This document shows, piece by piece, positions 54,699-55,586 of a stretch of 64,000 nt of DNA (positions within the stretch are counted from its first letter, which is position 1; every line of letters begins with the position of its first letter). The stretch is from NCBI RefSeq assembly GCF_900070355.1, contig NZ_LN849456.1, forward strand, positions 1,550,001 through 1,614,000, read 5' to 3'. The translations under genes were made by a program, and so were the position numbers. Source of the DNA: Devriesea agamarum (GTDB lineage Bacteria; Actinomycetota; Actinomycetes; Actinomycetales; Dermabacteraceae). The notes under the pieces are model-generated. The model did not search any database. It saw only the letters and a list, made by a program, of their open reading frames with translations, and was not told the DNA's origin.

Positions 54699-54896
54699 CT
54701 ACCTTCCAACCATCTCCTTCTTTGTGTACCGACGAATTATCTTTTTTTCATAAATTTCTCGAATAAGTTTAGAAACTACTACCCCACACAAAGCAATGAC
54801 AACTTTAATATTTCCCGAAAAATTTAAGGCAAATGCCGCCATCGCAAAAATAAAAATGATCCAAAATTGAACCCATGAGAGCCATCGAGGACACAT
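54699..54896 (-). CDS. Small two-helix membrane protein, possible immunity partner
   Basis: A 65-residue protein from ATG 54896 with AAGGA five bases upstream. There are two hydrophobic segments, WVQFWIIFIFAMAAFALNF (about 8-26) and KVVIALCGVVVSKLI (about 31-45), then a strongly basic tail (REIYEKKIIRRYTKKEMVGR). It lies 138 bases after the exported-protein gene at 55035-55586. Length and topology match the membrane protein at 2154-2345, although the sequences are not clearly similar. No family is recognised; an immunity or tethering role is inferred from the arrangement only. Confidence 0.6.
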   Translation of the reverse strand: MCPRWLSWVQFWIIFIFAMAAFALNFSGNIKVVIALCGVVVSKLIREIYEKKIIRRYTKKEMVGR

Positions 54897-55034
54897 AGGA
54901 ATCCTTTTTTATAAATAAAGACATGTCAGAAGTTGGCTGGATTTTAAATCGATTTAATGACAAAAATCCTATGATCTTTAAAAGACCTACTTTTGTAAAG
55001 AGACTCATTCTCGCGAATGAGAAAAAGTCTCCAA

Positions 55035-55586
55035 TCAGTGGTGACAATTAAGGATGCCATCAATGGCACCCGAAATCATCCCTACAGCGGCTCCTGCCGA
55101 AGCTCCTGGGAGGCACCCGGTTTCAATATCAGCAACACATCCACCAATCGCACCCGTCACCGTCCCGCTTCTAATTCTATCCAGATTGCAGTCCACCCAA
55201 GAAAAGGAGTCATTTGCACTCAACAAAGTTGATTCTTTTGCCGTGCCGACATATTCTGCTTCGTGTGAATTTTTAAGAGTCCAGCGTCCATTTAAAGTCC
55301 CGGAATTCGTTTTAATGGAACTTGGGATCTGATTTCGCTTACCGTTTCCCCCTAGCAGATCTAGGTCCCCGTTCGCTTCGACTTTAAGCTGTCCGTCATT
55401 TGATACAGTGGCGTCCATCTTAATTTCATTAGAATACTTTCCGGGAGTGACTTGAATGCGATAAGTGGAATCATGGGAGACGGGTAGTCCCGCAGCTGAC
55501 GCAGAAAGCATCCCCCCTCCCAAAAAGGCCCCCGTGAGAGCTGCAAAAGTAGCCACATTAGCCGCAATCCGAATGTAAGAAGTCAT
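55035..55586 (-). CDS. Exported protein with Gly/Ala-rich, Cys-containing C-terminus
   Basis: A 183-residue protein from ATG 55586, with AAAGGAG nine bases upstream. The signal peptide is IRIAANVATFAALTGAFLGG, then MLSASA as cleavage site. The mature N-terminal half is a soluble beta-rich domain (STYRIQVTPGKYSNEIKMDA, LKVEANGDLDLLGG, SGTLNGRWTLKNSHEAEYVG). The last 50 residues turn hydrophobic with four Cys and GxxxG spacing: WVDCNLDRIRSGTVTGAIGG, CVADIETGCLPGASAGAAVG, SGAIDGILNC. This tail is bacteriocin-like and could insert into membranes. The family is unknown. A small membrane protein gene follows, as at 1567-2345. Confidence 0.65.
   Translation of the reverse strand: MTSYIRIAANVATFAALTGAFLGGGMLSASAAGLPVSHDSTYRIQVTPGKYSNEIKMDATVSNDGQLKVEANGDLDLLGGNGKRNQIPSSIKTNSGTLNGRWTLKNSHEAEYVGTAKESTLLSANDSFSWVDCNLDRIRSGTVTGAIGGCVADIETGCLPGASAGAAVGMISGAIDGILNCHH

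Follow-up and report, generated by a model that had tools for sequence, protein, structure and literature searches.

A candidate Sec-secreted bacteriocin and its putative immunity protein in a decayed mobile island of Devriesea agamarum

Introduction

Does a short pair of genes in Devriesea agamarum, the first for an exported protein and the second for a small membrane protein, encode a secreted bacteriocin together with the protein that protects its producer? The pair, called cassette 2 here, lies in a stretch of 64,000 nucleotides (hereafter the window; positions 1,550,001-1,614,000 of a 2.96-Mb single-contig genome). A sequence-only reading had placed it at 54699-55586, given it the same layout as another pair at 1567-2345 (cassette 1), and proposed it as a new exported antagonism system. 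The coordinates hold, with both genes on the minus strand, a detail that had been missing. An antagonism cassette is also the best-supported reading of the present analysis, but 'new system' is too strong a term, as the organisation is of a known kind and only the exported protein is new. The features discussed below are as follows.

54699..54896, minus strand: gene 2 (P0002), ORF of 65 aa, two-helix membrane protein with hydrophobic segments starting at residues 8 and 29, proposed immunity protein
54902..54907, minus strand: Shine-Dalgarno sequence of gene 2, AAAGGA
55004..55021, minus strand: intergenic hairpin CTCATTC-GCGA-GAATGAG from a terminator scan, possible attenuator between the two genes (RNA fold z-score -1.8)
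55035..55586, minus strand: gene 1 (P0001), ORF of 183 aa with ATG start and low GC and GC3
55044-55046, minus strand: Cys181 of gene 1, outer pair with Cys133
55062..55166, minus strand: probable glycine-zipper hairpin of gene 1, residues 141-175, with the inner pair C150/C158
55188..55190, minus strand: Cys133 of gene 1; with Cys181 it brackets the hairpin
55212..55490, minus strand: polar region of gene 1, residues 33-125, probably a beta domain
55491..55586, minus strand: predicted signal peptide of gene 1, residues 1-32 (MTSYIR...MLSASAA), with a hydrophobic stretch
55595..55601, minus strand: Shine-Dalgarno sequence of gene 1, AAGGAGA, upstream of the ATG
55648..55675, minus strand: weak promoter-like site TTGCGA-16-TATAGT from a consensus scan in which the number of sites was not above chance
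1647..2153, plus strand: exported protein of cassette 1, closticin 574-like C-terminal region, start codon out of frame
2154..2345, plus strand: small membrane protein of cassette 1, 63 aa

The two proteins

Gene 1 is intact, as had been claimed, and the N-terminus of its product, MTSYIRIAANVATFAALTGAFLGGGMLSASAA, reads as a standard Sec signal. The polar region that follows gave no sequence match to any family, and the beta-rich domain that had been assigned to it is partly borne out, in that AlphaFold2 places strands there at low confidence (mature residues 10-17, 24-31, 34-38 and 44-47). The C-terminal end of the product, RSGTVTGAIGGCVADIETGCLPGASAGAAVGMISGAIDGILNCHH, comes after the polar region and agrees in full with its earlier description: it is rich in Gly and Ala, has exactly four Cys (133, 150, 158 and 181), and carries GxxxG repeats around the motif GC-x6-GCxPG. 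A glycine-zipper hairpin is suggested for this tail by profile matches, shuffles, hhalign and two modelled helices (mature residues 96-121 and 127-150). The model of the mature protein, a check that the earlier reading had proposed, supplies these strands and helices but is poor overall (pLDDT 54.5). In it C150 and C158 stand at the helix turn and C133 and C181 towards the open end; spacing, position and this low-confidence model together suggest that 150 would pair with 158 and 133 with 181.

The product of gene 2 is, as described before, a 65-residue membrane protein with a basic end. It has two hydrophobic stretches and 11 K/R against 3 D/E, and its C-terminal end, KLIREIYEKKIIRRYTKKEMVGR, is basic. 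Searches for homologs of gene 2 found none, and its proposed role is therefore drawn from position and topology only.

Nothing places gene 1 in a known non-toxic family. Scans of both proteins against Pfam, NCBIfam and PHROG gave no hit above cut-off, the matches of gene 1 to Gly-zipper families being weak and all under the family cut-offs, and a search of the PDB, by sequence and by fold, returned no significant match. Gene 1 was not found in 46 other genomes of the host's family or in 395 other sampled genomes of its order, and neither gene has a second copy anywhere in its own genome. Phage records and IMG/VR yielded no real relative; the single IMG/VR match (L153) is a Gly-rich phage protein with neither signal peptide nor Cys pair, and was set aside.

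Composition and genomic setting

The GC content of gene 1 (48.9%) and gene 2 (36.4%) is far below that of the window (60.4%), and their GC3 values (42.9 and 34.8) compare with about 68-71 in the adjoining DyP and CopC genes. The pair sits in a decayed toxin-antitoxin and recombinase island, in line with what had been read from the letters: the surrounding genes include remnants of a Phd/YefM-like antitoxin and of a VbhA antitoxin accompanied by a truncated Fic stretch, together with two proteins of recombinase type and one HTH protein. Composition and surroundings support horizontal acquisition of the pair. Within the island, the VbhA antitoxin and Fic remnant at 56813-57303 shares 83% DNA identity with a plasmid of Cutibacterium modestum along a 0.5-kb stretch, and at 57375-60789 a tyrosine recombinase, an HTH protein and a 652-aa zinc-ribbon/SAM-like integrase-type protein stand in series, possibly as a three-gene transposition module.

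Genes 1 and 2 are separated by a gap of 138 bp, the terminator-like hairpin of which has a weak T-rich tail. Of the 73 window ORFs that reach 150 aa or more, one further case has a small two-helix ORF after it; as the background is thus about one ORF in 70, the two-gene layout is by itself weak evidence.

Cassette 1 and the closticin 574-like loci

The likeness between the two cassettes holds for their layout but not for their proteins, which are unrelated in sequence. The first gene of cassette 1 is broken, because the remainder of the gene is not in the frame of its start codon. Elsewhere in the D. agamarum genome, homologs of the cassette 1 exported protein lie at 2,679,580 (53% identity) and close to 2,144,754-2,145,149; other actinobacteria have them as well. 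Closticin 574 itself is synthesised as a Sec preprotein of 309 aa, the last 82 aa of which are the bacteriocin, released C-terminally (PMC10888436). The published fragment of closticin 574 (Pom-1, PMC7690686) aligns without gaps over 31-32 aa with cassette 1 and its relatives, L137, L130 and L139 scoring better than 500 of 500 shuffles and cassette 1 and L133 better than all but one. Cassette 1 and its relatives also match PHROG 25631. A two-helix membrane protein lies just downstream in six loci (L130, L131, L133, L137, L139 and the third own copy at about 2,144,754-2,145,149), and the small membrane proteins of these loci have diverged strongly in sequence, as co-evolving immunity proteins often have.

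Two of these closticin 574-like cassettes in the D. agamarum genome appear intact, each with the two-helix protein after it (L133 1255-2143, from genome positions 2,678,080-2,681,484; and L141, at the third-copy position, on the minus strand). The cassettes of other actinobacteria are L139, L137, L131 and L130, with an in-frame stop in L131 and in L137.

Gene 1 was also considered as a closticin relative and rejected, since 338 of 500 shuffles score as well. The closticin region C..I..A....F..AK..KIK..I...GG is present in the cassette 1 relatives and absent from gene 1. The bearing of cassette 1 on the antagonism reading is through its organisation: because the parallel first drawn from it proves to be a closticin 574 relative with a downstream two-helix protein in its family, that reading is partly supported, and, as the closticin 574-like loci share the layout, cassette 2 has the look of a weapon of that type fitted with a different warhead.

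Relatives of the gene 1 tail in Nocardia and Rhodococcus

Relatives of the tail were found among other actinobacterial secreted proteins. The trail began with a weak match in Nocardia farcinica and went on through matches in two further genomes; the first profile was built on three founders selected by their likeness to the gene 1 tail. With a four-row profile, the tail family was found in 74 of the 121 sampled genomes of one actinobacterial family (all genome searches here cover samples of genomes), with up to 17 matches in a single genome, often in tandem. Its members, named in Nocardia, Rhodococcus, Prescottella, Williamsia and others, combine a signal peptide with a beta-type domain, in which the motifs GxF, LPL and LTP are conserved, and with a tail that carries GxxxG repeats and the motif GC...GC(I/L/V)PG; the family has no name in Pfam or NCBIfam. 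Strands are predicted, weakly, both in gene 1 and in a relative. The model of a Rhodococcus relative is better than that of gene 1 (pLDDT 66), with an eight-stranded domain followed by helices; neither model matched a solved structure.

A profile of ten family proteins from which gene 1 was left out finds gene 1 at E = 1.1e-7, the top match outside that actinobacterial family across 395 genomes of the class. The two matches that rank next (2.1e-6 and 2.2e-5) are noise from Gly-rich sequence in the wrong frame, and for this reason the E-values alone are unconvincing. The score of the gene 1 tail was reached by 0 of 2000 shuffles of the full protein or of the tail, and by 1 or 0 of 2000 when every Gly of the tail was held in place. 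HHalign aligns the tail with the family at 95% probability and 47% identity over 36 columns without a gap, and gene 1 retains the family's invariant Gly and Cys columns at the same spacing. This ungapped match to an exported Nocardia/Rhodococcus family is what is new here. Residues 1-128 of gene 1 had no score against the family profile, and the outer Cys pair (Cys133/Cys181) is absent from the aligned relatives. It is likely, on this sequence evidence, that the tail of gene 1 and those of the family share descent, a claim limited to the tail.

The relatives were also compared for gene order. A small two-helix protein was directly downstream in 0 of 71 loci; three had no more than an ORF of 126 aa, 240 bp or further downstream, and the other 68 had none. 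Some members form tandem arrays of diverged glycine-zipper proteins with no obvious gene between (L027, L040, L034). The member with the best-matching tail, in Rhodococcoides kyotonense (L058 3001-6526), has a DyP peroxidase and a PCuAC gene for neighbours, an arrangement also seen in the window; a link of the family to such clusters was dropped, as no other species among the loci has it and the case is probably coincidence. Seven further candidates (L002, L003, L009, L010, L013, L056, L057) proved to be unrelated proteins or wrong-frame Gly-rich noise. The Nocardia antigens Nfa34810 and NFA49590 were not retained as members: the literature gave no usable link for either, and describes NFA49590 as a porin of the MspA family.

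Discussion

We give about an even chance to the reading that the pair encodes a Sec-secreted, membrane-inserting bacteriocin and its immunity protein. An export signal, a Cys-bracketed Gly-rich hairpin and a two-helix, basic-ended partner can be read directly. By analogy, the recurrence of the two-gene layout in the same genome with a known, closticin 574-like warhead argues for this function, and the sporadic distribution and mobile-island location would fit a competition cassette. The gene 1 product would, with high confidence from its sequence, be exported by means of the signal peptide. Outside the cell the two Cys pairs may oxidise and staple the two-helix glycine-zipper hairpin, while the polar N-terminal domain could keep the hairpin soluble, and might guide it to the target cell or be cut off as in closticin 574. 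The hairpin would then enter the cytoplasmic membrane of a rival, pack against itself by its GxxxG faces and dissipate the membrane potential. Gene 2, with its basic end in the cytoplasm, could block the hairpin by packing on it in the membrane of the producer itself. A pair of this kind would have come to D. agamarum by horizontal acquisition. Against this reading, the closest relatives of the tail lack a small membrane partner, they occur as many and often tandem paralogs, as toxin-immunity pairs do not, and no member of the tail family has a known toxic activity. The intergenic gap with its terminator-like hairpin, the lack of closticin likeness, the poor model and the background frequency of the layout also count against it. 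Since the relatives of gene 1 have no partner and no known activity, both killing and immunity are functions that we infer.

The main alternative, which we consider somewhat unlikely, is that gene 1, perhaps like its relatives in Nocardia and Rhodococcus, encodes an envelope protein that does no harm, with the beta domain facing the wall or surface, the hairpin serving as a membrane anchor or forming an oligomeric channel, and gene 2 being an unrelated or accessory membrane protein. The breadth of the tail family, its numerous paralogs and its tandem arrays without a partner gene all suit such a role. The host lineage, however, has no other members, the gene lies in a foreign and decayed mobile island, the family does not elsewhere present a single envelope gene paired with a two-helix protein, and the matches to Gly-zipper families stay below cut-off. 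It is quite improbable that the likeness of the tails is convergent, Gly/Ala low-complexity hairpins with Cys being of a recurrent kind, in which case the Nocardia/Rhodococcus link would be uninformative and the pair an orphan or relic. The tail alone matches, wrong-frame sequence comes close to gene 1 on the same profile, and the choice of the three founders favoured likeness to gene 1; yet the invariant Gly and Cys columns are kept at their spacing, the Gly-preserving shuffles almost never reach the score, and signal peptide, polar beta region and tail come in the same order in both proteins. Slightly less probable again is the possibility that the activity resides in gene 2, which would belong to the toxin-antitoxin island as a small membrane toxin or a protein of holin type, with gene 1 as a passenger. 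Type I toxins are typically small, hydrophobic and basic-ended, as gene 2 is, and the island holds toxin-antitoxin remnants; a Sec-exported protein, however, cannot serve as a cytoplasmic antitoxin, and the cassette 1 family keeps its gene order with diverse partners, which fits immunity better.

The bacteriocin reading could be carried further, to the rather unlikely proposal that the two-disulfide glycine-zipper hairpin defines a new class of stand-alone, Sec-secreted ionophore bacteriocin with a two-helix immunity protein, of which the Nocardia/Rhodococcus family would be the reservoir of exported membrane-active proteins. If this were true, the hairpin would be a new warhead among Sec-exported actinobacterial bacteriocins, and it would give a first functional handle on an exported family with as many as 17 copies per genome. 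As the pair is small and intact, the hypothesis is directly testable.

Comparison with known systems

The proteins of the Nocardia/Rhodococcus/Prescottella/Williamsia family (for example L058, L004 and L007) resemble gene 1 in signal peptide, polar beta-rich domain and C-terminal GxxxGxxxGC...GCxPGxxxGxxxGxxxG hairpin. They differ in an N-terminal domain that gives no significant alignment, in the missing outer Cys pair and in mostly extending past the hairpin, and as loci they differ from cassette 2 in their tandem paralogs and in having no two-helix partner. The closticin 574-like loci (cassette 1, the own copies near 2,679,580 and 2,145,000, and L130, L137 and L139) share with cassette 2 the signal peptide, an N-terminal region, a Cys-bracketed helical C-terminal region and the small two-helix membrane protein downstream, which in cassette 2 stands across the 138-bp gap. 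In contrast to gene 1, with which they have no sequence similarity, their C-terminal region is Lys-rich and amphipathic and not a glycine zipper.

Class IIc bacteriocins (PF10439, Bacteriocin_IIc) are membrane-active and, like gene 1, Gly-rich with GxxxG, but they are short peptides with a double-glycine leader whereas gene 1 has a Sec signal; gene 1 scores 11.0 bits against PF10439, below the cut-off of 27.1. Propionicin SM1, a 207-aa Sec-exported actinobacterial bacteriocin (PMC5756557), resembles gene 1 by description in size, signal peptide and actinobacterial producer. The nearest mechanistic precedent for cassette 2 is the ionophore toxins of contact-dependent inhibition (CDI), which have a glycine-zipper helix and are neutralised by two-helix hairpin immunity proteins of 72-100 aa (PMC11630599). 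The likeness, again by description, would lie in the glycine-zipper, membrane-inserting toxin domain and in the small two-helix hairpin immunity proteins (CdiI). The CDI ionophores are unlike cassette 2 in being delivered by CdiA in Gram-negative bacteria and in forming a five-helix bundle, and while the CDI toxin is the C-terminal part of the large CdiA carrier, gene 1 encodes a stand-alone exported protein of 183 aa.
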